From a virus: DNA of 50,067 nucleotides. Of the stretch, positions 8,909 to 45,328 are shown one piece after another. The notes under the pieces are model-generated. The model ran no database searches. It was given only the letters and a program-made list of their open reading frames with translations, and was not told where the DNA came from. Numbering within the stretch: position 1 is the stretch's first letter; every line of letters starts with the position of its first letter. The position numbers and the translations under genes are program-made. The stretch covers positions 1 through 50,067 of the IMG/VR virus record IMGVR_UViG_3300010354_015069; one strand, written 5' to 3'.

Positions 8909-8934
8909 AAAACCTCCCACGTGGGAGGTTTTTT
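8909..8934 (+). terminator. Rho-independent terminator
   Basis: Nearly loop-free palindrome AAAACCTCCCAC / GTGGGAGGTTTT followed by T residues, directly after the 385-residue gene. The T run leads into the next late promoter. Confidence 0.85.
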
Positions 8935-8941
8935 ATAAATA
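8934..8941 (+). promoter_or_regulatory. T4-type late promoter box TATAAATA
   Basis: Exact consensus 19 bases before the ATG at 8960, overlapping the end of the preceding terminator. Confidence 0.75.
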
Positions 8942-8959: not shown

Positions 8960-9421
8960 ATGAAAACTTACGAAGAATTTATTAGAGAAGCTTATAAAAA
9001 ATCTTATGGTGAAATTGATGAAGGATTGGGAACTTTAGCTAGTAGAGTAGGAAGATTTATTCCTGGATTGCAGACAGCTGCTGGTTTGGGACTTGCCGGA
9101 TATAGATTATATAAAGGAGATAAAACTGGTGCTGCTCTCGCTGCAGGTTCTGCTATTCCTGGACCTATTGGATGGGGATTTGCGGGTGCAGATATTGCCA
9201 GAGAAGTTGGCAAATATCAACAATCTCAAAAATCAGCAAAACCAAAACCACCAACATCACCAAAATCAGTAACTCCAACCACACCAAAACCATCAGGAAA
9301 AGTTTTATCAAAACTTGGTGGAGTTGAAGGAACTGGAGTTGGAAAAGAATTTGTTCCTACTAAAGGTGGATGGAAAGTAGGAGAAAAAGAAAGATACGAG
9401 AAATATAAAACAAAAGTTTAA
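8960..9421 (+). CDS. Internal-protein-like product with T4-type capsid-targeting sequence and hydrophobic glycine-rich core
   Basis: The N-terminus MKTYEEFIREA differs in only two positions from the capsid-targeting sequence MKTYQEFIAEA that I know from T4 internal proteins. Cleavage would fall after IRE. Next is a Gly/Ala-rich amphipathic and hydrophobic region (about residues 15-70: AAGLGLAGYRLY, GAALAAGSAIPGPIGWGFAGA) like a membrane-inserting hairpin. A Pro/Lys linker follows, then a C-terminal LGG-x3-G segment also found in the 9463 protein. The ATG at 8960 is preferred to a GTG one codon earlier. Inferred role: packaged and possibly injected protein acting at a membrane. Confidence 0.6.
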   Translation: MKTYEEFIREAYKKSYGEIDEGLGTLASRVGRFIPGLQTAAGLGLAGYRLYKGDKTGAALAAGSAIPGPIGWGFAGADIAREVGKYQQSQKSAKPKPPTSPKSVTPTTPKPSGKVLSKLGGVEGTGVGKEFVPTKGGWKVGEKERYEKYKTKV

Positions 9422-25533: not shown

Positions 25534-26252
25534 TGAAAGTTGCTATTTGTTTTATTGGAACGGGTAAATATTTAAATTTTCTTCCAAAATATTATGAAAA
25601 TATTGAAAAATATTTTTTATTAAATTCAAAAAAAACTTTTCTTGTTTTTACTGACGGTGAAATGAATGATGTTCCCGATAATGTTATTCATTATTATCAA
25701 GAACATTTGGAATGGCCTTATATTACTTTAAAAAGATTTGAATTCATTTTAAGAGCAAAAGATGAAATTAAAAAAAATGATTGGTTTGTATTTATTGATG
25801 CAGATGCTTTAGTTGTAAGTACAATATCTGAAGATCAATTTTTTGATAAACAGAAATTATATTTTGGAGTTCATCATCCTTGTCATTTTTTAAAAATGCC
25901 TCCGCATGAAAAATTTCCTGGAGCATTAGAAACAAATCCAAAATCAAAAGCTTTTGTTGAAAATAATAATGATTTTTCTGTATATTTTCAAGGATGTTTA
26001 TGGGGTGGAAAAGTTCCTAAAGTGCTTGAAATGCTTGAAGAACTTAATGAAATGGTGACTATTGATATTAATAATAATATAATAGCAGTATGGCATGATG
26101 AAAGTCATTTGAATAAATTTTTTATAGATAATAAAAAAAATGTAAATATTCTTGGTTCTGAATATGCTTATCCGGAAGTTTTTTCTAGTTACTGTGATTT
26201 TGAACCAAAAATAGTCCATCTTGCAAAAGATAATTCAAAATATCAAATATAA
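25533..26252 (+). CDS. Glycosyltransferase family 6 (ABO blood-group-like)
   Basis: A 239-residue protein. Start is the ATG overlapping the upstream stop (TAATG); an in-frame ATG 15 bases earlier is less likely. GT6 hallmarks: ICFIGTGKYLNF, LEWPYITLKRF, the metal-binding FIDADALVV (DxD type), GCLWGG, and AVWHDESHLNKF followed by EYAYPE. GT6 enzymes add Gal or GalNAc in alpha-1,3 linkage, often to a fucosylated galactose, which would make it act after GT11. As far as I recall, cyanophage P-SSM2 also carries a GT6. Confidence 0.88.
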   Translation: MKVAICFIGTGKYLNFLPKYYENIEKYFLLNSKKTFLVFTDGEMNDVPDNVIHYYQEHLEWPYITLKRFEFILRAKDEIKKNDWFVFIDADALVVSTISEDQFFDKQKLYFGVHHPCHFLKMPPHEKFPGALETNPKSKAFVENNNDFSVYFQGCLWGGKVPKVLEMLEELNEMVTIDINNNIIAVWHDESHLNKFFIDNKKNVNILGSEYAYPEVFSSYCDFEPKIVHLAKDNSKYQI

Positions 26253-26265
26253 TTGAGGTAAGTTA

Positions 26266-26850
26266 ATGACTAAAATTTTTAATCGAGATTTAAATGAACC
26301 AATGAATGAAGTTCAGCAAAATATAAAAAATAAGTTTATTGAAATGACAAAACTTAATCTTACAGATAAAGCTGCTGAGCATTCTTATGAAGAAGTTTAT
26401 CCTTTTTTATTAGAAGATTTTGTTGGTAAAGATGGTTTAAATATGTTAGAAGTTGGAATATGTTGTGGAGGAACTCTTAGAGCTTTATCTGAACTTTTTC
26501 CTAATTCCAATATATATGGAGTTGATTGGGATTTATCAAGATTGCAAATTGATCTAGAACAACTTTCCAATATTAAGGTTTTTAAATCTCATCAATGTGA
26601 TTCAAATTTTTTAAATAATCTTCCTATGTTGGATTTTGTAACTGAAGATGCTTCTCATGTTATGTCTGAATCTATAGCAACATTTGAATTGTTGGAACCA
26701 AAATTGAATTCAGGAGCAATGTATGTAATTGAAGATATTTACCCAGAATATTATAATGCTTATTATAGAGATGGGAGATTTGATATTTACGATGTCACTG
26801 ACATTAAAGGTAGAGGTGATGATGTTTTAGCTGTTTACATTAAAAAATAA
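26266..26850 (+). CDS. SAM-dependent methyltransferase-like protein
   Basis: A 194-residue class I methyltransferase fold: glycine-rich SAM loop MLEVGICCGGTLRAL (residues about 62-76), acidic end of strand 2 in IYGVDWD, and DFVTEDASHV. It is similar to Methyltransf_24 or cephalosporin-hydroxylase-like proteins of glycan clusters. A ribosome site (GAGGTAAG) precedes the ATG. Probably methylates a sugar; the target is unknown. Confidence 0.75.
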   Translation: MTKIFNRDLNEPMNEVQQNIKNKFIEMTKLNLTDKAAEHSYEEVYPFLLEDFVGKDGLNMLEVGICCGGTLRALSELFPNSNIYGVDWDLSRLQIDLEQLSNIKVFKSHQCDSNFLNNLPMLDFVTEDASHVMSESIATFELLEPKLNSGAMYVIEDIYPEYYNAYYRDGRFDIYDVTDIKGRGDDVLAVYIKK

Positions 26851-26861
26851 AAAAATTAATT

Positions 26862-27878
26862 ATGTATAAAGAAATTTTACATATTTCTCATCATATTGGA
26901 TGTTTTAGAGATCAACATTATGTTTTAAAAGAACTTGGTTTTGAAGTAACTAATCATAAATTTTATGACGGCACTTTTACTATTACTGAAGATATTGCTA
27001 ATCAATTTTGGAAAGATCATAAAGATCAATTGAATGATTTTGATTATATTTTAACATCAGATACTGCCCCCTTATCAAGAATTTTTCTTGAAAATCAAGA
27101 TGAATTTACATCCAAACTTGTAATTTGGATTTGTAATAGGTTTGATTATAGAATGGAATCTGAAAAAAGATTTTATGAATTGTTTAGTAAAGCAGAAGAA
27201 AATCCAAATATTAAAATAGTTCCTTATAGTTATTTTGAAAAAGTTTGGTGCAATAATCGAGGAACTAGTATCATGGATCATGATCACATTTCTCCTTGTG
27301 GAATTAATTTACTTGAATACGAAAAAGATATTCCAGAGACTCCTTATTTTGAAGAAATGTATGGAGAAAAAAATCAACTTCCGGATGCAGATGTAATAGT
27401 TCCCATTTATCATAATGATAATAATTTTTTTAAGATGAGTGATTTTTTGAGACAAATGGGAGTCAGTGTTTATAATGGTGGATTTAGATCGGTAAATCAA
27501 CTTAAAAAGTATAAGGCATTTGTACACATGCCAGACGCTTTTTCTAAGTTTTTATGTTTTGAACTTATTCATTCAAATATACCTGTAATATTGCCATCTA
27601 AAAATTTTTTATATAAGTTATCTAAACAACCAAATTATTTTTTCAATATTTGGGGATCTGGTGGAGCGGATCTTCTTCAAGAAGATTGGATTGATTGGTG
27701 TGAATGGTATGATCCAAATTTGGTCGATTGTAGATTTTATTATAATCATTTTGAAGAAATTCCAGAGATTATAAATTCAATAGATCAACAATACATGAAG
27801 TCTAGTTTTGACAATGGATCTAATTATTTGTATAATAAAGTAATATCTAAGTGGAAGAATTTTTATTCTAGTTTCTAA
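26862..27878 (+). CDS. Probable glycosyltransferase (GT-B-like), unassigned family
   Basis: A 338-residue protein, N-terminal half of alternating strands and helices (EILHISHHIGCFRDQHYVL, DYILTSDTAP), C-terminal half with ADVIVPIYHNDN, AFVHMPDAFSKFLCFELIHSNIPVILPS. This resembles the donor-binding half of GT-B enzymes, where a Glu after a short loop holds the nucleotide. No exact family recognised. Placed inside a run of glycosyltransferase genes, 11 bases after the methyltransferase. Confidence 0.6.
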   Translation: MYKEILHISHHIGCFRDQHYVLKELGFEVTNHKFYDGTFTITEDIANQFWKDHKDQLNDFDYILTSDTAPLSRIFLENQDEFTSKLVIWICNRFDYRMESEKRFYELFSKAEENPNIKIVPYSYFEKVWCNNRGTSIMDHDHISPCGINLLEYEKDIPETPYFEEMYGEKNQLPDADVIVPIYHNDNNFFKMSDFLRQMGVSVYNGGFRSVNQLKKYKAFVHMPDAFSKFLCFELIHSNIPVILPSKNFLYKLSKQPNYFFNIWGSGGADLLQEDWIDWCEWYDPNLVDCRFYYNHFEEIPEIINSIDQQYMKSSFDNGSNYLYNKVISKWKNFYSSF

Positions 27879-27881
27879 TTT

Positions 27882-28844
27882 ATGAAAATAATTATTTGGG
27901 GATATCCTCTTCATTCACACACTCACTCATACATTCATGCAGCCTTTTATAAAGCATTTAAACACCTAGATTATGAAACCTATTGGTTTCATGATGATAA
28001 TTATCCAGAAAATTTTGATTGGAAAGATTGTTTATTTTGGACTGAGGGATTTGCTGATAAAAATATTCCATTAGATAAAAGTAGCGTATACTTTGTTTTT
28101 TGTACACCAGATCCTGCAAAATATATCAATGCTGGCGTAAAAAAATTTGTTGACTGTCGTTATAATCATGTTTGGCATAAGGATCATGTAAATAGTTGGA
28201 AGTTGGATAAATCTAAACTTAATAAAATTGGTCCTTGTTGCTATTTGCAACAAGGACAAAACAAACGAGTTCAGGTGTTGAATGATTATCATCAATATTG
28301 GATTGAAGATTATGATAAATTTTACATAACTTGGGCGGCAAATTATCTTCCAGAAGAGTTTAATTTAAATGACATTCACTATCCCAGAGAAAATAAAATT
28401 TATTTTAGTGGAAATATTTCTGCTGTAGGTAGATGTGAGAATTATAGTAATTTTAAACCATTTGTCGAAGAGTGTATTAAAAATAATATTGAATTTGTAC
28501 ACAATGATCCATTTACCAATCCCTTAAGTGAAGAAGAAGTTATATTAAGAAGTAAAAAATCAATTTTAGGTGTTGATATTCGTGGTCCAGAACATCTTCG
28601 TAATGGATATGTGCCATGTAGAGTTTTTAAGTCAATTAGTTGGGGACACTTGGCAACCACTAATTCGCAAGAAGTTTATAATGAATTGGAAGGAAATTGC
28701 CTTTATCAACCAGATACTGCCCAACTTTTTTATGACTCAATGGACAGACGATTGGATTTTAACTTTATTAAGAGTAGCATGATATATGTTAAAGAAAATC
28801 ATACATATTTGAATAGAATTAAATCAATTATGAGTATTTTATGA
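27882..28844 (+). CDS. Probable glycosyltransferase (GT-B-like)
   Basis: A 320-residue protein starting MKIIIWGYPLHSHTHSYIH, with IYFSGNISAVGR near residue 168 and SILGVDIRGPEHLRNGYVPCRVFKSISWGHLATTNS near 229, the region where GT-B enzymes hold the donor. Seen in exostosin-like or GT1_2-type proteins. Exact activity unknown. Overlaps the next gene by four bases (ATGA). Confidence 0.6.
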   Translation: MKIIIWGYPLHSHTHSYIHAAFYKAFKHLDYETYWFHDDNYPENFDWKDCLFWTEGFADKNIPLDKSSVYFVFCTPDPAKYINAGVKKFVDCRYNHVWHKDHVNSWKLDKSKLNKIGPCCYLQQGQNKRVQVLNDYHQYWIEDYDKFYITWAANYLPEEFNLNDIHYPRENKIYFSGNISAVGRCENYSNFKPFVEECIKNNIEFVHNDPFTNPLSEEEVILRSKKSILGVDIRGPEHLRNGYVPCRVFKSISWGHLATTNSQEVYNELEGNCLYQPDTAQLFYDSMDRRLDFNFIKSSMIYVKENHTYLNRIKSIMSIL

Positions 28845-29644
28845 AAAATATTACAGTTGTAACAGCTCTTTTTAATATTGAAAGAGAAGATATTGATGGT
28901 AGAAAATGGGATGATTATTTAAAATGGTTTGATGTAACTTTAAAATTAAAGTGTCCAATGGTAATTTTTGTTACTGAGGATGTTAGGGAATTTGTGGAAC
29001 AGAGACGATTAACAGTACCAACTAGCATTAATGTTCAAACTATCAAAGAAATTCCTTATTGTCATTTGAATGATAAAATTCAAAATATTTTATCATCCGA
29101 AGATTATCAACAGAAAGTTTTGGATCTTGATAGAATTGAATGTAAGTATTCGATGCACCCTATCGTGAATTTTTCAAAATTCAAATGGATCGATCAAGTG
29201 TGTGAACAAAACCCCTATAATTCTGATTTTATTTTTTGGTTAGACGCTGGGGCTTCAAGGTTTTTTGAAAATTTTGATTTAAATGAAGAATTTCCGAGCA
29301 AATCTGCCATGGAAGCTTTAGAAGAAATGGGAGAAAGTTTTTTAATTCAAATGAACTGTGATTATTATCCAGATTTGTTTGACGCAGATGAACTTCCTTT
29401 AAGTTATCTTTATGATAATAGGTCTTATATCTTAGGATCTTTATTTGGCGGGCATAAAAATATAGTTCCAAAAATATCTCAAATCGTTGATGATATTTTT
29501 ATCAATGAAATGTTAGAAAAAAATATAGTAAATAATGAACAAATCGCATTAGGGTATATTATTAAAAAATATCCAGATTATTTTACTTTGTATCATAGAA
29601 CCAATGGGAAACATATGGATATATTTTCGGAGTTGACTAAGTAG
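28841..29644 (+). CDS. HtrL/YibB-family glycosyltransferase-like protein
   Basis: A 267-residue protein. ITVVTALFNIERED at the start, MVIFVTEDV, and DFIFWLDAGASRFF near residue 130 (a D-x-G metal-site-like motif) match the HtrL_YibB family, which are GT-A-like proteins of LPS clusters. The C-terminus has NNEQIALGYIIKKYPDYF. Starts in an ATGA overlap and overlaps the next GTG start. Confidence 0.75.
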   Translation: MKNITVVTALFNIEREDIDGRKWDDYLKWFDVTLKLKCPMVIFVTEDVREFVEQRRLTVPTSINVQTIKEIPYCHLNDKIQNILSSEDYQQKVLDLDRIECKYSMHPIVNFSKFKWIDQVCEQNPYNSDFIFWLDAGASRFFENFDLNEEFPSKSAMEALEEMGESFLIQMNCDYYPDLFDADELPLSYLYDNRSYILGSLFGGHKNIVPKISQIVDDIFINEMLEKNIVNNEQIALGYIIKKYPDYFTLYHRTNGKHMDIFSELTK

Positions 29645-30582
29645 TGAAAATTGGATTGATTGCTGGTGGACATTTAGAAATACCACCAAAGGGGTGGGGT
29701 GGGGTTGAGCATTTGATTTGGAATTTTTCTCAACAATTAACACGGTTGGGTCATGAAGTAACTATTATTAATACTCAAAATTTAAGTGAGATAATTCAAA
29801 AAGTCAATTCAATTTGTTTTGATGTTATTCATATTCATTACGATCAATACGCAAATATTTTTCAATATTTAAATTGTAATAAAAAAATAATAACTAGTCA
29901 TTATCCTTATTTGGAAAATCCAGAACCACAATATCTTTTTTTGTATGATCTTTTAAAGGAATGTGGCGCACATAATATTGTTTTATCCGATAGAATTAAA
30001 AAAGAATTTTTGCTAAAAGGATTTACCGATAAAGAAACATCAGTTCTTCCTTGTGGTATTAATGTTAGTTCGTATGTGATTGATAAAGAAAATGTTCTTT
30101 TCCCAGATAAATCTATTATTGTGGGTAAAATAGAACCAAGAAAAAGACAGGCATTCCTGCAGGATAAAAATTTAAACATTGATTTTGTTGGAAATTGTGT
30201 AGATCCATCTTTCAATCTTCAGGATACTCATTATTTGGGTGAGCAAAGTAAAGAAGATATTATGGAAAATTTAACTGCCTATGCTAATATGGTTCTATTA
30301 AGTAGTGGAGAGGCTCATCCTTTCGTATGCCTAGAAGCTCTTTCTGCAGGTCTTGGATTAGTTTTATCCGAACAAAGTACAGCAAATCTTGATCTATCTC
30401 AACCTTTTATCACTGTTATTCCGGACAATAAAGTTAATGATGTTCAATATTTGAAAGAAAAAATTGAGGAGAATAGAAAAATTTCTTTATGTGTGAGGGA
30501 AAAAATTAGAAAATATTGTTATGATAATTTTGATTGGTCTGTCATCATTAAAAAATATTTAAACATCATTAATTCTATATGA
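29644..30582 (+). CDS. Glycosyltransferase family 4 (paralogue 1)
   Basis: A 312-residue GT-B enzyme with a GTG start overlapping the previous stop (TAGTG). Motifs: LIAGGHLEIPPKGWGGVEHL (acceptor domain loop), IVGKIEPRKRQAFL, HPFVCLEALSAGLGLVLSE (the EX7E-type donor motif), STANLDL. The 36855 gene is a clear paralogue. Likely substrate is a nucleotide sugar such as the heptose made by the next three genes, but this is inference. Confidence 0.82.
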   Translation: MKIGLIAGGHLEIPPKGWGGVEHLIWNFSQQLTRLGHEVTIINTQNLSEIIQKVNSICFDVIHIHYDQYANIFQYLNCNKKIITSHYPYLENPEPQYLFLYDLLKECGAHNIVLSDRIKKEFLLKGFTDKETSVLPCGINVSSYVIDKENVLFPDKSIIVGKIEPRKRQAFLQDKNLNIDFVGNCVDPSFNLQDTHYLGEQSKEDIMENLTAYANMVLLSSGEAHPFVCLEALSAGLGLVLSEQSTANLDLSQPFITVIPDNKVNDVQYLKEKIEENRKISLCVREKIRKYCYDNFDWSVIIKKYLNIINSI

Positions 30583-31526
30583 TTATATCTTCTTGCCCAT
30601 TAAGAATATCTTTATTTGGAGGGTCCACTGATAATCCATATTTTGTTGAAAAATTTGGTTATGGATCTGTAATTAGTTTCACTTGTGATTTAAAAACTTA
30701 TGTCACAATTAGTCAAGATAAGTTTGGATTTAATAAAGATCAACACAAATACATTGTTAATTATTCTCGTAGAGAAGAAGTTTCCACAATTCAAGAAATA
30801 CAAAATGATGTTATAAGAGTTGTGTTGGAGTATTTTAATATGCCACCGGTACAAGTGACTCTTACTAGTGATGCATATTCTCAAGGAAGTGGACTTGCAT
30901 CATCTTCTTCTTATATAATCAGTTTGATTAAATCTTGCACATTATTTCTTAATAATGAAATGACCGATGTTGAGATTTGCAAATTGGCTTATGAACTTGA
31001 ATTGAAATTTAATCCATACTGTGGATACCAAGATCCTTATGGATGTGGTATTGGAGGTTTTAAGAGAATTGAGTTTATTAAAGGTGGAATTGTAAAATAT
31101 GATTTTTTACCTACAAAGTTGTTTGATTTCTATGATTCTTATCTTGTTTTTACCGGAGTTACAAGAAATTCTAAGAACGTTTTAAAGGATGTCACTGATA
31201 ATATTGATAAAGCAAAACCTCTTTTAGGAACACTTGATAAGTCTTATTCTGCAATGTTGGAAAGTGATTATGGTAAGTTTTTAAATTATTTGAATAAAAG
31301 TTGGATTCAAAAAAAGAAAACAAGTTCTATTATAACTGAAAATTCTTTCATTAAAGAAATGGATGATCACTTAAATGAGAATGATAGTGTTATTGCACAT
31401 AAATTATGCGGTGCAGGTAACGGTGGATTTTTCTTAGTTTTTGCCGAAAAAGAAAACTTGAATATTCCCTATCAATCTGTTAGAATTAATGTTACATCAA
31501 ATGGAGTTTCTGGAACTAAAATATGA
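30579..31526 (+). CDS. hddA: GHMP kinase, heptose-7-phosphate kinase-like
   Basis: A 315-residue GHMP kinase: PLRISLFGGSTDNP at the start (typical of HddA), QGSGLASSSSY near residue 103 (ATP loop), GYQDPYGCGIGGF near 150, and AHKLCGAGNGGFFL near 268. HddA phosphorylates D-glycero-D-manno-heptose 7-phosphate at position 1. A SIS isomerase and a phosphatase-nucleotidyltransferase gene follow, each with an ATGA overlap, which supports this reading. Another sugar kinase role is possible. Confidence 0.82.
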   Translation: MIISSCPLRISLFGGSTDNPYFVEKFGYGSVISFTCDLKTYVTISQDKFGFNKDQHKYIVNYSRREEVSTIQEIQNDVIRVVLEYFNMPPVQVTLTSDAYSQGSGLASSSSYIISLIKSCTLFLNNEMTDVEICKLAYELELKFNPYCGYQDPYGCGIGGFKRIEFIKGGIVKYDFLPTKLFDFYDSYLVFTGVTRNSKNVLKDVTDNIDKAKPLLGTLDKSYSAMLESDYGKFLNYLNKSWIQKKKTSSIITENSFIKEMDDHLNENDSVIAHKLCGAGNGGFFLVFAEKENLNIPYQSVRINVTSNGVSGTKI

Positions 31527-32026
31527 ATCCGTTTTTAGAATATATTAAGGTGCTTCAAGGTGCCCATATTGAAGAAGAGTTCAAAAAGTTTTGTGGAGCA
31601 TTTAATCTTCATAGTAGAATCATTATTCTTGGTAATGGTGGAAGTAACTCTGTGGCATCTCATATCTCTCAAGACTATATGAAGTTTCACCGAAAGAAGG
31701 TTTCTATTCTTTCAGATCCTTCAATGATCACAATGCTTACCAATGATTTTGGATATGAGAATGCCTATCAAAAGTTTTTGGAATATTATGTTGAGAAAGA
31801 TACTCTTGTGATTATTATGAGTTCTGGTGGTGAGTCTAAAAATATGTTAAATGCCCAACAATGGTGTGAGCAGAACAATGTTTCATACGGAGTCTTGAGT
31901 GGATTCAATCCCGATAACAGTCTAAGAACTGACGCAACTAATGCTATTTGGAATTATTATATCAATAGCACTGATTATGGTGTTGTTGAGTGTGTTCACC
32001 AAATTTTTCTTCATGGGGTTGTATGA
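31523..32026 (+). CDS. gmhA: Phosphoheptose isomerase-like SIS protein
   Basis: A 167-residue SIS-domain protein: IILGNGGSNSVASHISQDY (sugar-phosphate loop; His kept, the Glu four positions later is Asp here), LVIIMSSGGESKNML and VECVHQIFLHG at the C-terminus. GmhA turns sedoheptulose 7-phosphate into D-glycero-D-manno-heptose 7-phosphate, the first step of heptose synthesis. Slightly shorter than E. coli GmhA. Tightly coupled with the kinase gene upstream. Confidence 0.8.
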   Translation: MNPFLEYIKVLQGAHIEEEFKKFCGAFNLHSRIIILGNGGSNSVASHISQDYMKFHRKKVSILSDPSMITMLTNDFGYENAYQKFLEYYVEKDTLVIIMSSGGESKNMLNAQQWCEQNNVSYGVLSGFNPDNSLRTDATNAIWNYYINSTDYGVVECVHQIFLHGVV

Positions 32027-32751
32027 GATATTGTTTTGATATTGATGGAACGCTTTGTGATACTCCTAACAATGAGAAAGGAAAACCAGATTATCTAAAT
32101 GCTAAACCATTTCCTTTTATGGTGCAGCAAGTGAATCGATTGTATGATGAAGGGCACTACATTATTATGCAGACTGCCAGAGGCAAAGGTTCTGGTATTG
32201 ATCATACTGAATTAACTAAAGCACAACTTGATAATTGGGGATATAAGTATCACGAATTATTCCCAATGTTTTGTAAACCAACTGCAGATGTGTTCATTGA
32301 TGATAAAGGTATCAATGTTGAAGATTGGAAGCAAAACCAATCATTAGTTAAAGGTATTGTTGCTGGTGCATTTGACCTAATTCACCCCGGATACATTCGA
32401 ATGTTTGCAGATTGTAAGAAGCATTGTAATCATCTTACAGTTGCACTGCATGAAGATCCTTCTTTTGCTAGACCACATAAACTACCACCAGTTCAAAGTC
32501 TAGAAGATCGAAAGGAAATATTGAGAGCAATCAAGTACATTGACAATATTGTAGTTTATCAAGCAGAAGATACTTTTCTTTCATATCTTGATGATTATGA
32601 TGTTAGATTTTTGGGTGATGATTACCGTGATGGTTCTTATACTGGGAAAGATAATAAAATTAAAATTGTTTTTATAAATAGAGATCATGATTATTCAACT
32701 ACAAAGTTAAAAACAAAAATATACAATTCATTTGTTGGAGAAAAAGTGTGA
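32023..32751 (+). CDS. HAD phosphatase fused to a cytidylyltransferase-type nucleotidyltransferase
   Basis: A 242-residue two-domain protein; start set at ATG 32023 in an ATGA overlap. The HAD domain (residues 1-105) has CFDIDGTLCDT, with both catalytic Asp, MQTARG and VFIDDKG. The nucleotidyltransferase domain (about 110-235) has VAGAFDLIHPGYIRMFADCKK, SLEDRKEILRAIKYID and RFLGDDYRDGS, similar to RfaE/HldE-C and glycerol-3-phosphate cytidylyltransferase. It reads HPGY where the usual motif is HxGH. It would do the dephosphorylation and activation steps of NDP-heptose synthesis. Confidence 0.78.
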   Translation: MRYCFDIDGTLCDTPNNEKGKPDYLNAKPFPFMVQQVNRLYDEGHYIIMQTARGKGSGIDHTELTKAQLDNWGYKYHELFPMFCKPTADVFIDDKGINVEDWKQNQSLVKGIVAGAFDLIHPGYIRMFADCKKHCNHLTVALHEDPSFARPHKLPPVQSLEDRKEILRAIKYIDNIVVYQAEDTFLSYLDDYDVRFLGDDYRDGSYTGKDNKIKIVFINRDHDYSTTKLKTKIYNSFVGEKV

Positions 32752-33527
32752 TTGATGCAATCGATTTGGGAAAAGTTAGAAAAGAAAATATTATAATTCC
32801 ATATTCAATCTCTATTTTATCTAAAAATTATTGTGAACTTCAAAAAATTTTAAAGTCTGATTGTTTTCTTGAAATTGGTGCATTTGAGGCAGATTTTTCA
32901 AGAAATATGAAAAATATTTTTCCGACTTCAAAAGTATATGCTTTTGAAGCGAGTCCTTATTGTTATGAAAATTATAAAAATTTGAATTCTTCTATTGAAT
33001 ATTTAAATTTAGCAATTTCTGATAAAGATGGAGAAATTTATTTTTCATTGCAAGATAAAAATTTATCTGATCAAACTGAGATTGAAAAAGTTCGTGGTAA
33101 CAATAGTATTCTAGATAGAAACGATGATACAATTTCTTATAAAAAAATTAAGGTAAAAACCACTACACTTGATTCATTTATAGAAAAAAAATCTTTAACT
33201 GATTTATCTTTTTCTTTATGGATTGATGTTGAGGGTGCAAATAAAAATGTTTTGCAAGGGGCACAAAAGTATTTAAAAAACACTCAATCATTATTAATTG
33301 AGGTCGAAGATTTTGAATATTGGAAAAAACAATGGATATCTAAAGACGTTGACAAATTCTTGCAAGACTATGGTTTTATACCAATTTCAAGAGATTTTGA
33401 AGATAACAACCAATATAATGTAGTGTATATTAATCAACGTTTAGTTGAAGATATAAATATTGAAAACCAAATAAAAAATTGGATTAATAATTATTTTTTT
33501 CAAATCGGATTAGAGATAGTTTCATAA
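32748..33527 (+). CDS. FkbM-family methyltransferase 1
   Basis: A 259-residue protein with GTG start overlapping the upstream stop (GTGA). The SAM fold shows CFLEIGAFEADFS, VYAFEASP, LNLAISDKDGEIYF and TLDSFIEKK, then SLWIDVEGANKNVLQGA, the FkbM hallmark. Probably O-methylates a sugar in the glycan. A second FkbM gene is at 35356. Confidence 0.8.
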   Translation: MIDAIDLGKVRKENIIIPYSISILSKNYCELQKILKSDCFLEIGAFEADFSRNMKNIFPTSKVYAFEASPYCYENYKNLNSSIEYLNLAISDKDGEIYFSLQDKNLSDQTEIEKVRGNNSILDRNDDTISYKKIKVKTTTLDSFIEKKSLTDLSFSLWIDVEGANKNVLQGAQKYLKNTQSLLIEVEDFEYWKKQWISKDVDKFLQDYGFIPISRDFEDNNQYNVVYINQRLVEDINIENQIKNWINNYFFQIGLEIVS

Positions 33528-33551
33528 TTAAGAGATGAGGATAATTTTTGT

Positions 33552-34646
33552 ATGTATGATTATTTGATAGTTGGTTCGGGATTATTTGGATCAGTATTTG
33601 CAAGACTTGCAACTGATGTTGGTAAAAAATGTTTAGTAATAGAAAAAAGAGATTATATTGCAGGTAATTGTGCTACCGAAAATATAGAAGGTATTAATGT
33701 ACATAAATTTGGTGGACATATTTTTCATACCGATAATAAGTATGTTTGGGATTTTGCCCAAAGATTCACTGAATTTAATAATTATGTAAATTCTCCAAAA
33801 GCATTATCCGGCGGAAAATTGTATTCTCTCCCTTTTAATATGAATACTTTTTATGAGTTGTGGGGAAGTATAACTCCAGACGAAGCAAAAAAAGTCATTG
33901 AAGAGCAAAAATTTAAAGGTACTCCAACGAATCTTGAAGAACAAGCATTATCTTTGGTTGGTAGGGATATCTATGAAATTTTAATTAAATATTATACCAA
34001 AAAACAATGGGGAAGACCTGCAGTTGAATTGCCTACCTTTATTATAAAAAGATTACCGTTGAGATTTATTTACGATAATAATTACTATAAAGAAAGGTAT
34101 CAGGGTTGGCCGATTGGTGGGTATACCAAGATGTTTGAAAAAATTCTTGATGGAATTGAAGTACGATTAAATACTGATTATTTTTCTGATAGAGAATATT
34201 TTAATTCTCTTGCAAATAAGGTTGTTTACACTGGATGTATAGATGAATTTTTTGATTATGAATTTGGAGAGTTAGAATATAGATCTTTAGAATATGACCA
34301 TAAAATTTTAAATACCTCAAACTTTCAGGGAAATGCTACAATAAATTATTGCGATGATAGTGTTGCCCATACACGGTGTTTAGAGCATAAACATTTTGAA
34401 AAAATTAGTTCAGAAAAAACTGTCATTTCTTATGAATATCCGATGGAATATGTAAAAGGTATGATACCTTTCTATCCAATCAATGACGAAAAAAACCAAA
34501 AAATTTATAAAAAGTATCAAAGAAAAACAAAAGATTTGACTAATTTTGTTTTTGGTGGTAGATTATCAGAGTATAAGTATATGGATATGCATGTTGTAAT
34601 TGAATCTGCTATGAATAAATTTAAACAAGAAGTGCAATCAAAATGA
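33552..34646 (+). CDS. glf: UDP-galactopyranose mutase
   Basis: Turns UDP-galactopyranose into UDP-galactofuranose with a reduced FAD. 364 residues, full length. Visible: FAD-binding LIVGSGLFGSVFARLA at the start, VIEKRDYIAGN, HKFGGHIFHT, YTKKQWG, the substrate-region RYQGWPIGGYTKMFE, and EYPMEY. The next gene encodes a GT-A enzyme that could use the Galf donor. Galf is rare in cyanophage genomes as far as I know. Confidence 0.93.
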   Translation: MYDYLIVGSGLFGSVFARLATDVGKKCLVIEKRDYIAGNCATENIEGINVHKFGGHIFHTDNKYVWDFAQRFTEFNNYVNSPKALSGGKLYSLPFNMNTFYELWGSITPDEAKKVIEEQKFKGTPTNLEEQALSLVGRDIYEILIKYYTKKQWGRPAVELPTFIIKRLPLRFIYDNNYYKERYQGWPIGGYTKMFEKILDGIEVRLNTDYFSDREYFNSLANKVVYTGCIDEFFDYEFGELEYRSLEYDHKILNTSNFQGNATINYCDDSVAHTRCLEHKHFEKISSEKTVISYEYPMEYVKGMIPFYPINDEKNQKIYKKYQRKTKDLTNFVFGGRLSEYKYMDMHVVIESAMNKFKQEVQSK

Positions 34647-35347
34647 ATTTTGTAGTTCATCATCAATGTTATAAAAATAAAAAAGCAACCGAATTTGCGA
34701 TAAAATCTTTCCGTCAGTTTAACCCATTAGATCCATATGTGTTATGGTCTGATAATGGATATGACTACTCCGATTTTGCTAAAGAGTATGATGTTGATTT
34801 TATTCTTTCTGATTTCAATATTGGTGCCCATGTTTATAGGGGCAAACAGCAAGTATTTGAGTTTTTTAATAGAGTTAGAAAAACATGTGAAATGTATCCA
34901 GATAAACCTTATGTTATGTGGATGGAAGATGATGTTTTGATTAAAGGAAAAATTAATATCCCAGAGGGTGTGGACTTTTGTGGTTGGCCTGATGTTGGAA
35001 ATAGTTTAACTAATCCTCACATTCATATTGATAAATTTAAAAGTCTTTGTGAAAAATATTCAGTAAATCCAAATTTTGATTATTGGACTGCAGCTGGAGG
35101 AATTATGATGTCATCTGATGTCTTTACTTCTAAGTTTCATATTTTAGAGCAATATATTGAAGAAGATTATGAAAACCTTGCAAGAATTTTTACCGAAAAA
35201 CTAGATTATGATATTCAATTCATGATGGCACATTTAGTATGCGACAAAAAGTATTCAATTTGGTCACAAATTACTGAAATGCATAGAAATTCAAATTGGG
35301 CAAATGAACAATATGCAGTTGTCCATGGATATAAAGAACATTACTAG
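34643..35347 (+). CDS. GT-A-type glycosyltransferase, possible galactofuranosyltransferase
   Basis: A 234-residue protein. FVVHHQCYKNKKATEFAIKSF at the start, VMWMEDDVLI near residue 91 (DDV as metal site), FDYWTAAGGIMMSSDVF near 145, and QFMMAHLV. This fits a small GT-A enzyme. It overlaps glf by four bases, suggesting it uses UDP-Galf; this is context-based inference. Confidence 0.65.
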   Translation: MNFVVHHQCYKNKKATEFAIKSFRQFNPLDPYVLWSDNGYDYSDFAKEYDVDFILSDFNIGAHVYRGKQQVFEFFNRVRKTCEMYPDKPYVMWMEDDVLIKGKINIPEGVDFCGWPDVGNSLTNPHIHIDKFKSLCEKYSVNPNFDYWTAAGGIMMSSDVFTSKFHILEQYIEEDYENLARIFTEKLDYDIQFMMAHLVCDKKYSIWSQITEMHRNSNWANEQYAVVHGYKEHY

Positions 35348-35355
35348 GAGTTAAA

Positions 35356-35943
35356 ATGAAAAAAGTTTTTTTGGATTTTGGTGGAAATCGTGGGCAAGGT
35401 CTACGTCAATTTGTAGAGATGTTTAATATTGATTCATCTTGGGAGGTTAAGACTTTTGAACCCAATGATTTTTGCAATCTTAAAGAAGAACTTTTTGATT
35501 TTCCTTTTGTAGAAGTGTATAATCAAGCAGTGTGGATTTATGATGGTACAGTTCAATTTAATAGAACAACTGCTCATCGTGATGGACGATCTTTTAATGA
35601 TAAGAACGGAAATTCTTATATTGATGAAGGATCTTCTGTTATGGGATTGAATGCTGGTGATGTTGTAGCGTGTGTTCAAGATGTAATTGATGTTGAATGT
35701 GTAAATATTTCTCACCTCATTAATCAGTATAATGAAGATGACTACATCATTGTTAAAATGGATGTAGAGGGTGCAGAGTTTGAACTTGTAAGAAAATTGT
35801 TGAAAGATAATGTAGTTCAAAAAATTAATGAACTTTATATTGAATGGCATACTCAACATGTCCCGGGTGAAACTTATGATACTGAAAGAGATCTAAAAGA
35901 AAAATTATCAAAAACCAAAGCGAACGTTCATGATTGGCATTAA
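35356..35943 (+). CDS. FkbM-family methyltransferase 2
   Basis: A 195-residue methyltransferase: VFLDFGGNRGQGL, VKTFEPNDF, and YIIVKMDVEGAEFELVRKLL (FkbM hallmark MDVEGAE). Ribosome site GGAG before ATG. Shorter than the 32748 FkbM and not an obvious recent copy. Confidence 0.8.
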   Translation: MKKVFLDFGGNRGQGLRQFVEMFNIDSSWEVKTFEPNDFCNLKEELFDFPFVEVYNQAVWIYDGTVQFNRTTAHRDGRSFNDKNGNSYIDEGSSVMGLNAGDVVACVQDVIDVECVNISHLINQYNEDDYIIVKMDVEGAEFELVRKLLKDNVVQKINELYIEWHTQHVPGETYDTERDLKEKLSKTKANVHDWH

Positions 35944-35958
35944 TCTATAGGAGGAAAA

Positions 35959-36858
35959 ATGAAGTCTTTAGTTACTGGTGGGGCTGGATTTATTGGATCA
36001 AATCTTGTTGATTTTCTTTTAGAAAAGGGACATGAAGTTGTTGCGATTGACAATGAAAGTGCAAACAATGATTCTTTTTATTGGAATAGCAATGCAATTA
36101 ATGTTAAAGCAGATATTACTGATTATGAATCTATAAAAGATTATTTTAAAAATGTTGATTATGTCTTTCATTTAGCTGCAGAATCTAGACTTCAACCTGC
36201 GATTGAAAATCCAATAGATGCTGTATATAAAAATTGTGTCGGTACGACAGTGGTTTTACAATGTGCTAGAGAATTTGCCGTAAAACGTTTTGTCTATTCT
36301 TCTACATCTTCTGGATATGGAAACAATTCTTGGCCAAATGTTGAAACTCAACCCGATGATTGTTTAAATCCTTATTCTGCGTCAAAAGTTGCTGCTGAAA
36401 AATTTTGTAAAATGTACTATAATTTGTATGGATTAGAAACAGTATCCTTACGTTATTTTAATGTATTTGGGGAAAGATCTCCAAGTAGGGGTCAGTATGC
36501 TCCTGTCGTAAGTATTTTTCAAAGGCAAAAAGATAATGATGAATCATTAACAATTGTTGGCAATGGATCTCAAAAAAGAGATTTTGTTTATGTAAAAGAT
36601 GTTGCAAAAGCAAATTATCTTGCGGCAACAACAAATCTTGATATAAATGGTAAAAATTATTTGGGAGATGTGTTTAATGTAGGTAGTGGAAAAAATTATT
36701 TCATTAAAGAGATTGCTGATTTGATTTCTATAAATCAAGTTAACCTTCCAAAAAGATCTGGTGAAATGGAAACTACTTTGGCTGATATTCAGAAAATAAG
36801 TGAAGTTATTGGTTGGAAGCCTGAGACTGATGTGTTGGAGTGGATTAAAAGTCTATGA
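35959..36858 (+). CDS. NAD-dependent sugar epimerase/dehydratase (extended SDR)
   Basis: A 299-residue extended SDR: TGGAGFIGSNLVDFL (NAD loop), DYVFHLAAESRL, YSSTSSGYG, and the catalytic NPYSASKVAAEKF (YxxxK). SLRYFNVFGERSP and KRDFVYVKDVA follow as in UDP-glucose 4-epimerase-type enzymes. It probably provides UDP-galactose or a related sugar, which Glf could then use. Strong ribosome site AGGAGG. Confidence 0.85.
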   Translation: MKSLVTGGAGFIGSNLVDFLLEKGHEVVAIDNESANNDSFYWNSNAINVKADITDYESIKDYFKNVDYVFHLAAESRLQPAIENPIDAVYKNCVGTTVVLQCAREFAVKRFVYSSTSSGYGNNSWPNVETQPDDCLNPYSASKVAAEKFCKMYYNLYGLETVSLRYFNVFGERSPSRGQYAPVVSIFQRQKDNDESLTIVGNGSQKRDFVYVKDVAKANYLAATTNLDINGKNYLGDVFNVGSGKNYFIKEIADLISINQVNLPKRSGEMETTLADIQKISEVIGWKPETDVLEWIKSL

Positions 36859-37814
36859 AAATTTCTTTTATTGGACCTGGTTTACTGCCAATTCCACCTA
36901 ACGGTTGGGGAGGTATTGAACATTTAATTTGGGATATGAAATTGTCTCTTACAAAACTTGGGCATGAAATACAAATTATTAATGTTTTAGATCCAAGAGA
37001 AATTATCTCTCAAGTAAATCAGTTTCGCCCAGATTTTGTTCACATACAATATGACGATTGGGTTATTATATATCCTTATATACAATATCCATGTGCAATA
37101 TCAACTCATTTTGCTTATATTGAAAATCCTGATATGATGGGTCCATATAGACAAAGAGTTTTTGAACAATTTAGACGAATTAAACCTAATGTATTTGGTT
37201 TGTCTCAAGGAATCAATAATGTTTATTATGAAGAATTAAAAATACCTAAAGATAAATTATTTTTAATTCCAAATGGAATTGATGTTGACCTTTATAGGTT
37301 TTCTAAAAGCCCAAAATATCCAAATAAAACTATTTGTTTGGGTAAAATTGAACCTCGTAAAAAGCAACACTTTTTACAATCTATTGATTCAATTTGGTTT
37401 GCTGGAAATTTATCTGATCCCAGATTTGATTCATCAAAAAATTATCTAGGAGAATTTCCAAAAAGTAAAATTTTTAAAGAATTGACTGAGTATGGAAATT
37501 TAGTTTTAATATCTGATGGAGAAGTTCACCCAAGAGTTTGTACTGAAGCTTTATCTGCAGGTCTTGGTTTAGTTGTTTCGGAATGTGCAACTGCAAATTT
37601 AGATTTGAATAAAAAATTTATAACAGTTATTTCAGAAAATAAAATATCTGATATTGATTATATCAAAACTAAAATAATTGAAAATAGAGAATATTCAGTA
37701 AATAATCGAGATCAAATTTTACAATACTCAAAAAAATTTGATTGGGAAAATATATATGAAAATTTTTATTTTCCTAGTATAATTAAAGTTATAAACAATG
37801 CTCATAATGGATAA
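36855..37814 (+). CDS. Glycosyltransferase family 4 (paralogue 2)
   Basis: A 319-residue GT-B enzyme sharing with the 29644 protein the loops IPPNGWGGIEHLIWD, CLGKIEPRKKQHFLQ, HPRVCTEALSAGLGLVVSE and ATANLDL. This shows duplication and divergence within the operon. Overlaps the epimerase gene by four bases and the GT25 gene by 17. Confidence 0.82.
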   Translation: MKISFIGPGLLPIPPNGWGGIEHLIWDMKLSLTKLGHEIQIINVLDPREIISQVNQFRPDFVHIQYDDWVIIYPYIQYPCAISTHFAYIENPDMMGPYRQRVFEQFRRIKPNVFGLSQGINNVYYEELKIPKDKLFLIPNGIDVDLYRFSKSPKYPNKTICLGKIEPRKKQHFLQSIDSIWFAGNLSDPRFDSSKNYLGEFPKSKIFKELTEYGNLVLISDGEVHPRVCTEALSAGLGLVVSECATANLDLNKKFITVISENKISDIDYIKTKIIENREYSVNNRDQILQYSKKFDWENIYENFYFPSIIKVINNAHNG

Positions 37815-38607
37815 AAATAAATCAGCATATAAACTTAAAAATCTTCCTCCAGTTTATTATTTAAATCTTGATGGGCAACCAGAAAGAGCACAATATATGG
37901 AAGAACAATTTAAATATTGGGAAATAGAAAATTATACCCGTATTTCTGCTTACGATGGTAGAGAAGATGACTTGAGTGATATTATTAAGGGTAAGTATCC
38001 TGAAGATATGACATCAGGTGAAATTGGTTGCACTACTTCTCATCTTAAAGCAATTAAACATTGGTATGAAACAACTGACACTTCTTGCGCCATTTTTATG
38101 GAAGATGATGTTGATTTGCAAACTGTAAAATTTTGGAATTTTTCGTGGAAGGATTTTTATTCTAAAGTTCCTTATGACTATGATGTAATTCAACTTGCCA
38201 TTATTTGTACTGGTAATTTACATGTAAGACTTCATAAGAGATTTATTAATGATTTTTCCACCGCTGCATATATGATTAGTAGACATCATGCAGAAAAACT
38301 TTTAAAGTTTCATGTTCGTGATGATAAGTATAAACTAGACCAAGGTGTAAGACCAAGAGCAGTTGCTGATGATTTAATTTATAATTCAGGAAATACTTAT
38401 GCAATTCCTTTGTTTTTATATCGGATTGAATTAGGTTCTTCTATTCATCCAGAACATATTGATGTATTTCATCGTGCTAGTCATGACGGGTTACTAAATT
38501 ATTGGGAACATCAAGGATATGAAATGAATATTGATGAATTGATGAATTATGACCCATATCTTGGAAGAATTACTGAACCAACAAGACCAGAACCAGAAAA
38601 TCAGTAA
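37798..38607 (+). CDS. Glycosyltransferase family 25 (LPS type)
   Basis: A 269-residue GT25 protein: YYLNLDGQPERAQYM near the start, YTRISAYDG, SGEIGCTTSHLKAIKHW, and AIFMEDDVDL (metal-binding DDVD), typical of LPS glycosyltransferases. The start could also be ATG 37807. Last gene of the glycan operon; a sigma70 promoter follows. Confidence 0.85.
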   Translation: MLIMDKNKSAYKLKNLPPVYYLNLDGQPERAQYMEEQFKYWEIENYTRISAYDGREDDLSDIIKGKYPEDMTSGEIGCTTSHLKAIKHWYETTDTSCAIFMEDDVDLQTVKFWNFSWKDFYSKVPYDYDVIQLAIICTGNLHVRLHKRFINDFSTAAYMISRHHAEKLLKFHVRDDKYKLDQGVRPRAVADDLIYNSGNTYAIPLFLYRIELGSSIHPEHIDVFHRASHDGLLNYWEHQGYEMNIDELMNYDPYLGRITEPTRPEPENQ

Positions 38608-39633: not shown

Positions 39634-39730
39634 GTCAGGAAACCCTGACTTTTGTACCTCCTTCAACCGAGACCTATGGGGAGGTTAAAAAGAAGTCTCT
39701 CATCTTGCCTTCACTTGAGGGTAGTGAAGG
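39634..39730 (+). promoter_or_regulatory. Structured 5' leader of psbA with three hairpins
   Basis: Three inverted repeats: GTCAGG/CCTGAC (39634-39649), ACCTCC/GGAGGT (39656-39685) and CCTTCACT/AGTGAAGG (39708-39730). The second hides a GGAGG, so the fold could control translation or stability. No known riboswitch recognised. Confidence 0.5.
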
Positions 39731-39781
39731 AAAATAACGTTTAGAATCTTCCCTGGATTCACTTATTTTCTTTTAATTCTT

Positions 39782-42737
<2,956 letters not shown>

Positions 42738-42762
42738 GTTTCTTAAAAACTGAATAATAATC

Positions 42763-42790: not shown

Positions 42791-42884
42791 ATGGTATAAT
42801 AGGTGGTTCAGAGCATTTTGTAAAAGAACTACCGATACAAGAAGTTATAGATTACGCAAATCGGAAATTAAAAACTAATTGATT

Positions 42885-43397
42885 ATGAAAGAAGAATGGA
42901 AAAACATTGTAGTTGATGGAAAAGTTTATGAAGGATATTCTGTATCAAATTATGGGAATATAGTTACTCATAAAAAACAATGTGGAGGAAATATTGGTTG
43001 GATTTTTGACCCCAATTTTAGAAAGATTAAAAAAGCAAGAAAACAAAATAGGGGAATGAGTATATCTTTGACTTTTCCGAAAGGTTTTTTTGATTGGGAA
43101 TATAGATTAACTACATCCAGTAAAAATAGCATTACAAGAGATAGAAGAGTTCATCAATTGGTAATGGAAACTTTTTGTCCCATTGATGAAAATCCGCCAG
43201 TTCCAATTGAAGAATGGGAAAGAACTCCCGAAAGTGTAAAACAAATAGTAAGAGAGTGTATCTTTATAAATCATAAAGACCACGACTTTACGAATAATAG
43301 ATTGGATAATCTGGAATATGTTACTCCAAGACAAAATACTAGGAAAGCAGTAGAGCATTATGGAAAACACAATTGGTGTTACGGTAAAAATGATTAA
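42885..43397 (+). CDS. Free-standing HNH homing endonuclease with NUMOD4-like domain
   Basis: A 170-residue protein; start set at ATG 42885. NUMOD4-like start (EEWKNIVVDGKVYEGYSVSNYGNIV), then an HNH region: VHQLVMETFCP, FINHKDHDFTNNRLDNLEYVT (the H-N-H core) and NTRKAVEHYG. Lies 148 bases after psbA. Cyanophage S-PM2 has a free-standing endonuclease (F-CphI) near its intron-bearing psbA, so a role in spreading psbA introns is likely by analogy. Confidence 0.85.
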   Translation: MKEEWKNIVVDGKVYEGYSVSNYGNIVTHKKQCGGNIGWIFDPNFRKIKKARKQNRGMSISLTFPKGFFDWEYRLTTSSKNSITRDRRVHQLVMETFCPIDENPPVPIEEWERTPESVKQIVRECIFINHKDHDFTNNRLDNLEYVTPRQNTRKAVEHYGKHNWCYGKND

Positions 43398-43422: not shown

Positions 43423-44181
43423 ATGAAAAAATATTATTACATTTATTATAGTTACGAAGAATGGGGAAGAGGTTATATTGGAAAACGCTCTTGTAAATGT
43501 AAACCCGAAGAAGATGTAAGGTATTTTGGTTCTTATAAGGATAAGACCTTTAAACCAACTAAAAAGATTATTCTGGAAACTTATGATACTGCAGAAGAAT
43601 TGGCAAAGGCAGAGGAGATTCTTCATGAGTTTTATGATGTAAGAAAAAATTCACATTTTGCGAATCAACATAATGCAAATGGAAATTTTTATCTCTCACA
43701 TGATAGTGCGGTTAGAAATGGAAAGATGCAGGGCGAAAGGACAAAAAAACTGGGTATTGGTATTCATAGATTTACACAAAAAGAAAGAATAGAAGTTGCT
43801 AGAAAAGGTGGTCAAGTAACTGGACAAAAATTCAAAGAACTTGGACTGGGAATTTTTTCATTAACAGAACAACAAAAAATTGATGTTTGTAAAATGGGAG
43901 GCAAAAAATGTAAAGACTTGGGAATAGGTATTTTTAATAGAAGCAAAGAAGAGCATAGTAAATCATCTATAAAGGGAGGAAGCAAGGGTGGCAAAAAATG
44001 TAAAAAATTGGGAATAGGTATTTTTAAATTAACAAAAGAACAAAGAAGTGAAAATTCTAAACGACTAGGTTCTCAAAGATGGCAATGCACTGAAACTGGA
44101 TTTATTTCCAGTCCAGGTGGTCTTTCCAATTATCAAAAAGCAAGAGGTATTGATACTTCTAAAAGAATCCGATTAGAATAA
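43423..44181 (+). CDS. GIY-YIG endonuclease with NUMOD3 repeats
   Basis: A 252-residue Seg-like protein. N-terminus YYYIYYSYEEWGRGYIGKRSC carries the GIY-YIG strands; DVRYFGSYKDKTF and ETYDTAEELAKAEEILHEF (catalytic Glu region) follow. The C-terminal half has four NUMOD3-like repeats (LGIGIF-x2-LTxEQ, GGKKCK) that bind DNA. Free-standing, 25 bases after the HNH gene. Together they form an endonuclease pair downstream of psbA. Confidence 0.85.
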   Translation: MKKYYYIYYSYEEWGRGYIGKRSCKCKPEEDVRYFGSYKDKTFKPTKKIILETYDTAEELAKAEEILHEFYDVRKNSHFANQHNANGNFYLSHDSAVRNGKMQGERTKKLGIGIHRFTQKERIEVARKGGQVTGQKFKELGLGIFSLTEQQKIDVCKMGGKKCKDLGIGIFNRSKEEHSKSSIKGGSKGGKKCKKLGIGIFKLTKEQRSENSKRLGSQRWQCTETGFISSPGGLSNYQKARGIDTSKRIRLE

Positions 44182-44880: not shown

Positions 44881-44888
44881 TCTAAATA
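44881..44888 (+). promoter_or_regulatory. Late promoter-like box TCTAAATA
   Basis: Seven of eight bases match TATAAATA; 14 bases before the ATG of the ART-like gene. Confidence 0.45.
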
Positions 44889-44902: not shown

Positions 44903-45328
44903 ATGAAGACTTATAAAGATTTTATTACTGAAGCATTTAAAAGAACTGGTGAAAAAATAGAATTTATAAGACTTCATCATGGGACTTCACCAGAATCTGC
45001 TGAAAAAATCAAGAAGAGTGATTTTACTGGTGGTAGAGAAGGTGAAGTTCATACTTCAACAAATCCAAAAACTGCAAGAGGATTTGGTGCAAGATATTCT
45101 GATAAACCAAAAAATATAACCATGCTGGTTCCCAAAAAATCAATAAAAAATGAACCAGAAAAAGGTGCAAAGGCAGTTAAAACGAGAGGTCAAAGACATA
45201 CCGACCAATTTGGCAGAAGACACTACTCTGTTGCCATGAATCCAGAATACGCTTCACGTAAAATTATAAAAACTGATGGTAGAATACAGAAACCTCAAAT
45301 TGCTAAAAGATATAGATCTATTGGATAA
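44903..45328 (+). CDS. Putative ADP-ribosyltransferase with T4-type capsid-targeting N-terminus
   Basis: A 141-residue protein. N-terminus MKTYKDFITEA is close to the T4 internal-protein capsid-targeting sequence MKTYQEFIAEA, with a prohead protease site at ITE-A. The rest looks like a small ART fold: FIRLHHGTSPESAEKI (first strand, HGT), EVHTSTNPKTARGFG (the STS/Tyr-strand region, near residue 50-64) and SVAMNPEYASRKII (late strand with a candidate catalytic Glu). T4 Alt is a packaged and injected ART, so this may be a short, unrelated-sequence analogue. The ART call rests on motifs only. Confidence 0.55.
   Translation: MKTYKDFITEAFKRTGEKIEFIRLHHGTSPESAEKIKKSDFTGGREGEVHTSTNPKTARGFGARYSDKPKNITMLVPKKSIKNEPEKGAKAVKTRGQRHTDQFGRRHYSVAMNPEYASRKIIKTDGRIQKPQIAKRYRSIG

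Follow-up and report, generated by a model that had tools for sequence, protein, structure and literature searches.

The question raised by positions 44,903 to 45,328 of this virus record is whether a small gene, whose product opens with a head-packing tag like that of the phage T4 internal proteins, encodes an ADP-ribosyltransferase (ART) that is carried by the virion into the host, and what such an enzyme would modify there. The window denotes the whole stretch analysed (50,067 nucleotides of IMG/VR record IMGVR_UViG_3300010354_015069), and the gene product is called CTS-ART after its capsid-targeting sequence (CTS) and its predicted domain. We favour the reading, with a probability of roughly 0.58, that CTS-ART is a head-packaged, injected effector of a T4-like cyanophage, with an ART of the Tpt1 NAD-lobe type and a non-protein acceptor. 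The original prediction had also proposed an injected ART of a cyanophage, with T4 Alt and the modification of host RNA polymerase as its model.

The open reading frame (ORF) at 44903..45328 on the plus strand starts with ATG, encodes 141 amino acids and has exactly the boundaries given originally. Against three orthologues (82-84% identity) its nonsynonymous divergence (dN) was ~0.10 and its synonymous divergence (dS) 0.65-1.0, corresponding to a dN/dS of ~0.1-0.16; this is a real gene with purifying selection on its frame. Its family comprises at least 30 different proteins, which come from uncultured T4-like cyanophages and are 28-84% identical. Residue counts given below refer to the alignment of 30 members, PHROG and NCBIfam profile scans to 24 members and the promoter survey to 28 loci; single loci are cited by their L numbers. 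Mature single-domain members have a net charge of +15 to +27, and the alignment revealed a conserved basic C-terminal tail (the DGRIQKPQIAKRYRSIG region, 45272..45325, plus strand), for which the predicted local distance difference test score (pLDDT) was low (53-65). A distant CTS-ART clade was also seen, at L028 (6001-6435) and L071-L073 (GHYVTPDKKKA). The nrdA-nrdB stretch of the window is 78% identical to that of Synechococcus phage S-SRM01 (Kyanoviridae), the nearest named phage, and the window carries a psbA gene with three group I introns; because of these features its source is, as judged by sequence similarity, a T4-like cyanophage, in agreement with the original proposal. The CTS-ART protein of the window gave no tblastn match among 50,697 phage records and no match in PADLOC, and neither of two scans of genomes from bacteria and archaea returned a relative, although records near the window genome may fall outside these scans. 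Four family members matched the PADLOC candidate family PDC-M13B (best 1.5e-5), and a few members weakly matched phrog_4700 and the PADLOC candidate PDC-M13.

The N-terminus was described originally as nearly the targeting sequence of the T4 internal proteins, and comparison with the T4 record bears this out: MKTYKDFITE/A in the window (44903..44935, plus strand; the slash marks where the prohead protease is predicted to cut, between E10 and A11, 44932/44933) is identical at 8 of 11 positions to MKTYQEFIAE/A of IPII and IPIII. From composition, the 551 candidate starts together should give ~0.001 such matches per window; two were observed, this gene and 8960..9421 (plus strand), where the motif scan found MKTYEEFIREA on a different body. 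Within the family the tag is highly conserved (F7 30/30, E10 30/30, A11 29/30), and searches with patterns from the ART domain alone (KTxGQ.., DKIKKSGF) retrieved relatives that also begin with a CTS. One lineage (L023, L024, L025 and L065) departs from this layout: its ART follows another protein, and the tag, GKTFSEFLEEA, sits inside the chain. The PHROG profile of an internal head protein (PHROG_2667) matched the tag region in 20 of 24 members, with a best value of 2e-4 and 0.059 for the window protein alone. The cut site ITE/A, recognised originally as being of the prohead-protease type, has a hydrophobic-x-E form before A, G or S, comparable to FLSE/A in the major capsid protein of S-SRM01 and FLTE/A in T4 gp23, and S-SRM01 encodes the head maturation protease gp21. 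In T4, a CTS of ~10 amino acids encapsidates virtually any attached protein and is then removed by the head protease (PMC7697877). As judged by tag and cut site, CTS-ART is a candidate member of the T4-type, CTS-bearing internal head proteins, and since this head-packing tag precedes the predicted fold of a NAD-using enzyme, the protein is probably injected into the host along with the viral DNA. We consider it very unlikely that the tag is a non-working CTS on a late protein that stays within the cell; some members do lie outside head gene clusters, beside homing endonucleases, but tag and cut site are kept in the family down to 28% identity, and unrelated neighbouring proteins begin with the same tag.

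Tag-like starts were also noticed elsewhere. In S-SRM01 (165428-166750; L079 15428-16750), MKNFHQFITEA opens a protein annotated as a 'cytidyltransferase', and proteins similar to it occur in 534 phage records, mostly of cyanophages. Caulobacter phage Cr30 encodes a protein (AGS80945; L067 1501-1821) that begins with MKTFKQFFNES and continues with YHGTS...; it may be a CTS-ART from outside the cyanophages. Five otherwise different proteins of the window (7745-8902, 9463-10722, 12897-13574, 14492-15340 and 21791-22510) contain recurring modules, namely LxEAYxxVY at the N-terminus and the block 'LLDEGYAETxEAAEVIMVNMSEDWRESI', which may represent a further recurrent tag.

A prohead-core protein needs late expression, and the late-promoter-like TCTAAATA at 44881..44888 (plus strand), 22 bp 5' of the ATG, would fit this need. 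NATAAATA is the late promoter of phage S-PM2 (PMC2984593), and NATAAATA or NCTAAATA was found 16-32 bp 5' of the CTS-ART start at 15 of 28 loci, against ~0.3 expected from the density further upstream. It should be stressed that CTAAATA is not enriched across the window (9 occurrences vs 16 expected), so that the evidence lies solely in its constant spacing from the start codon from locus to locus. At many of the remaining loci the CTS-ART gene overlaps the upstream gene via ATGA. The second CTS gene of the window has a TATAAATA late promoter at 8934-8941, 26 bp 5' of its start.

The AlphaFold2 model built from the 30-sequence alignment (pLDDT 81.7, predicted template modelling score 0.69) contains an ART-fold domain at residues 19-123 (44957..45271, plus strand). 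In a Foldseek search of the PDB, ranks 1-19 were all Tpt1/KptA (E 4e-3 to 8e-2). With VIA-align, the top match was the NAD lobe of Tpt1 from P. horikoshii (8tfz; Z 10.3, 2.4 Å, 82 residues), and ranks 1-14 were Tpt1/KptA (Z 9.2-10.3), followed by diphtheria toxin (Z 7.9) and PARPs (~6.5). All of the 50 VIA-align matches listed were ART-superfamily chains; the structural check suggested with the original prediction thus gave no sign of a non-ART fold. Profile comparisons pointed in the same direction: NCBIfam RNA 2'-phosphotransferase models matched 18-21 of 24 members (best 2.8e-6, and 0.0017 for the window protein), the PHROG RNA 2'-phosphotransferase profile matched 18 of 24 (best 2.4e-5), and HHalign aligned residues 24-68 of the family profile to four Tpt1 NAD lobes (95.4%, P 1.7e-8), while PF01885 did not match the window protein. 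As modelled, the body of CTS-ART has an ART fold that is nearest to the NAD lobe of Tpt1/KptA. A sequence match to ExoS in the PDB (E 0.24) was set aside, as it dropped from the list with the wider alignment, in which Tpt1 led.

Residues 26-64 align without gaps to residues 101-139 of CthTpt1, placing H26, T28 and R64 on H101, T103 and R139. In CthTpt1 the adenosine ribose of NAD is held by H101 and T103, and its phosphates by R121, R139 and R140 (PMC6333775). H26-G27 is invariant in the family (30/30), and T28 and R64 are each kept in 26/30. The HGT strand and the STS-type strand noted originally both have counterparts in the model, namely H26-G27-T28 in predicted strand 1 (21-28) and H50-T51-S52 in strand 2 (49-52). 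A late Glu had also been pointed out; E115 does exist, but it lies in the first part of the helix after strand 5 and is variable (E 12, D 14, K 2, N 1, A 1), and strand 5 itself (106-112), which reads H107-[YHF]108-S109 in 26/30 (H107-Y108-S109 in the window), has no conserved acidic residue among the 30 homologues. As there is no strand-5 Glu, catalysis of the Alt or PARP type was set aside.

The ART clades are distinguished as H-H-h, H-Y-[EDQ] and R-S-E, of which H-H-h acts mainly in RNA repair, on RNA ends and on small molecules (PMC9503650). Judged from the alignment, CTS-ART has the first His of H-H-h (H26), the second in the window (H50; Tyr in 18/30), and H107 in strand 5. The R-S-E pattern of T4 Alt/Mod was not found, strand 1 having His rather than Arg in 30/30 and strand 5 no conserved acidic residue; nor was the H-Y-D pattern of ART-PolyVal, the His being present and the Tyr found in 18/30 (His in the window), with no Asp in strand 5. 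The N-terminal winged-helix RNA lobe of Tpt1 is absent as well, only ~20 residues, half of them CTS, preceding the ART domain. So is the Arg-His-Arg-Arg tetrad: R18, H19 and R68 of CthTpt1 belong to the missing lobe, and opposite R121 the window has E46, while 22/30 members have a gap there. The family seems to be a variant form on the Glu-free side of the ARTs, distinct from Alt, ART-PolyVal and Tpt1, and a non-protein acceptor is, for these reasons, what the ART class makes most likely.

Two alternatives with a working enzyme have to be weighed against this assignment. One is an Alt-like modifier, packaged and injected, that mono-ADP-ribosylates host RNA polymerase, as originally suggested, or another host protein. 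T4 Alt acts in this way, and cyanomyoviruses have been reported without homologues of alt, modA and modB (PMC2984593); furthermore, the ARTs of polyvalent proteins are thought to modify proteins (PMC5512222), and six family members weakly matched Pfam ART-PolyVal (best 0.0091). The R-S-E residues are absent, however, strand 5 lacks a conserved Glu or Asp, and the nearest fold and profiles are Tpt1/KptA rather than Alt/VIP2 or PARP, consistent with the original remark that the protein is unrelated to Alt in sequence. Because the Tpt1/KptA class (H-H-h) mainly acts on RNA ends and small molecules (PMC9503650), RNA polymerase is not the best-supported target, and we regard an Alt-like modifier as quite improbable. 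The other is a packaged RNA repair enzyme of the Tpt1 type that would clear 2'-phosphates left by host RNases. Although Tpt1/KptA is closest by both fold and profile and KptA is present in large phages (PMC9503650), the RNA lobe is missing, as are R18, H19 and R68, three members of the essential tetrad (PMC6333775), and the R121 loop is missing or has E; we give this explanation hardly any credence.

Several observations weigh against the favoured reading. The AlphaFold2 model rests on 30 sequences, and a run with four close sequences gave a pLDDT of 35 and was discarded. The window protein on its own had no Pfam match at E≤10, and the NCBIfam matches score ~18 bits (18.2), compared with curated cut-offs of 233-239. 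Position 50 is His in 12/30, including the window, and Tyr in 18/30, and strand 5 has a His in place of the hydrophobic residue of the H-H-h class. Moreover, the catalytic Glu is absent, and activity could therefore be lost or unusual. The last points lead to a pseudo-enzyme or inhibitor, an ART scaffold that would carry out no transfer but bind NAD, ADP-ribose or a host defence protein, in the manner of IPI*, which inhibits a restriction enzyme. The missing Glu and the alternation of H and Y at position 50 would suit such a protein, and the internal proteins of T-even phages are diverse defence proteins with the CTS alone in common (PMC3012670). Against it, the ligand-binding residues H26-G27 (30/30) and R64 (26/30) are kept under strong purifying selection, so that we consider a pseudo-enzyme unlikely.

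According to the favoured reading of an injected, Tpt1-like effector, a small basic protein would be expressed from a late-transcribed gene and carried by its N-terminal CTS into the prohead core. The phage prohead protease would cut after E10, leaving a mature protein that starts with AFKRTG and enters the host together with the DNA. There, the stand-alone ART domain would bind NAD+ via H26-G27-T28 and R64 and transfer ADP-ribose to a nucleic-acid end or phosphate, or to a small molecule, and the outcome would be an early takeover or disarming of the cell to the benefit of the phage.

In relatives, the CTS-ART gene is found within rows of CTS-tagged genes with overlapping ends. In the row of L054 (5591-7645), the ART is accompanied by a weak GNAT-like gene and by two unknowns, and these unrelated proteins bear near-identical tags (MKTYKQFILEA, MKTYKQFMLEA, MKTYKQFIIES and MKTYKQFIIEA). 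An ART gene followed by a GNAT gene occurs in L007, L022, L026 (5441-6821) and L037, while the row of L038 (4631-6387) consists of an unknown, a GNAT, a fourth ORF with a tag-like MQPNKTFEEFLSEA, and the ART. In L049, ART and GNAT are fused in one chain with SVSEA between them. The GNAT assignments of L022, L038 and L049 lie above the Pfam cut-off, and the GNAT partner resembles the GNATs of DarB-like polyvalent proteins. Some families in the rows of L054, L038 and L026 had no library match at all. A second CTS protein that looked ART-like by eye (HYT..., VYTTPSS...; L044 5387-5944, L026 5441-5995) was rejected, as no library supported it. Since the tag is common to unrelated small enzymes, proteins injected by cyanophages can be sought directly from sequence.

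Many CTS-ART copies also adjoin homing endonucleases. In the window, the stretch 39646-42738 contains a PhotoRC-II RNA (39646-39743) and psbA, which is interrupted by three group I introns with intron ORFs (40000-40237, 41190-41458 and 42397-42628); upstream of psbA, at 24742-38607, is a long series of sugar-nucleotide, glycosyltransferase and methyltransferase genes. Between psbA and the CTS-ART gene are two further plus-strand genes, a free-standing HNH homing endonuclease 3' of psbA (42879..43397; Pfam HNH_3 2.6e-7, NUMOD4 7.5e-6) and a probable GIY-YIG/SegE-like endonuclease 5' of the CTS-ART gene (43423..44181), recognised by eye (YIYYS..GRGYIGKRSC) with no Pfam support. The idea that the CTS-ART gene lies inside a psbA intron was rejected, because the last psbA exon (HNFPLDLA) lies upstream, at ~42666. 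The second ART clade (L071) has the same placement 3' of psbA, L001 has a SegE GIY-YIG neighbour (2.8e-28), and HNH-like genes lie 13-15 bp upstream of the CTS-ART gene in L018 and L057. In L002 (2920-5876) the gp41 helicase gene is split within an intein, and the gap holds the CTS-ART gene and, directly upstream of it, a GIY-YIG-like/NUMOD3 gene, with TATAAATA at ~4290, ahead of the gap genes. In L020 (2953-8286) nrdA is split, and a NUMOD1 gene occupies the gap together with two genes of the CTS type, one CTS-like and the other the CTS-ART gene; an intein C-part follows further on. An endonuclease in the gap of split helicase genes is familiar from 'fractured genes' and gp41 split inteins; in the literature searched, no description was found of an effector as a passenger in split genes.

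The proximity to homing endonucleases hints at how effector genes could be passed from one phage to another. Taken together with the rows of tagged genes, it allows a wider and distinctly tentative proposal, namely that T4-like cyanophages may possess a modular injected arsenal, in which interchangeable CTS tags precede small enzymes (two clades of Tpt1-like ARTs, GNATs and unknown domains) encoded in overlapping operons. Such genes would ride homing endonucleases from phage to phage, also inside split-intein gp41 and nrdA, and the Glu-free H-[HY]-H site would attach ADP-ribose to nucleic-acid ends or phosphates in a cell that has just been infected. To our knowledge, such chemistry is known for no virion-delivered enzyme.

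Compared with known systems, the family of a CTS joined to a Tpt1-like ART, the CTS operons and the association with homing endonucleases are new. CTS-ART resembles T4 IPI, IPII and IPIII in its N-terminal tag of ~10 residues, protease site and small basic body, but the bodies of the internal proteins are unrelated, whereas that of CTS-ART is a predicted ART-fold domain. T4 Alt is an R-S-E ADP-ribosyltransferase that is packaged in the head and injected; CTS-ART would share with it the superfamily and the proposed packaging and injection, and differs in its H-[HY]-H residues, its mature size of ~130 amino acids, its tag of the internal-protein type and its lack of sequence similarity. As cyanomyoviruses are reported to lack Alt, ModA and ModB, CTS-ART is a candidate functional counterpart of these proteins from another ART lineage. 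Packaging of ARTs in myovirus heads has been proposed to be widespread on the basis of MuF/portal fusions and gene context (PMC9503650), and a targeting tag as an argument for it was not found in that paper. Like the ART-PolyVal and Tox-ART-HYD2 domains of polyvalent injected proteins, CTS-ART appears as an ART tied to injection and with a GNAT partner of the DarB-like kind, but it is a separate small CTS protein instead of part of one giant polypeptide, and it has no strand-5 Asp. With Tpt1/KptA it shares the NAD-lobe fold, the HGT motif, the V-H-x-S strand and R64, equivalent to R139 of CthTpt1, while the RNA lobe and the Arg-His-Arg-Arg tetrad are absent, strand 5 is different and a CTS has been added. 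If our reading is correct, CTS-ART would thus represent the Glu-free, Tpt1-like side of the ARTs among injected proteins, which predicts an acceptor other than protein.
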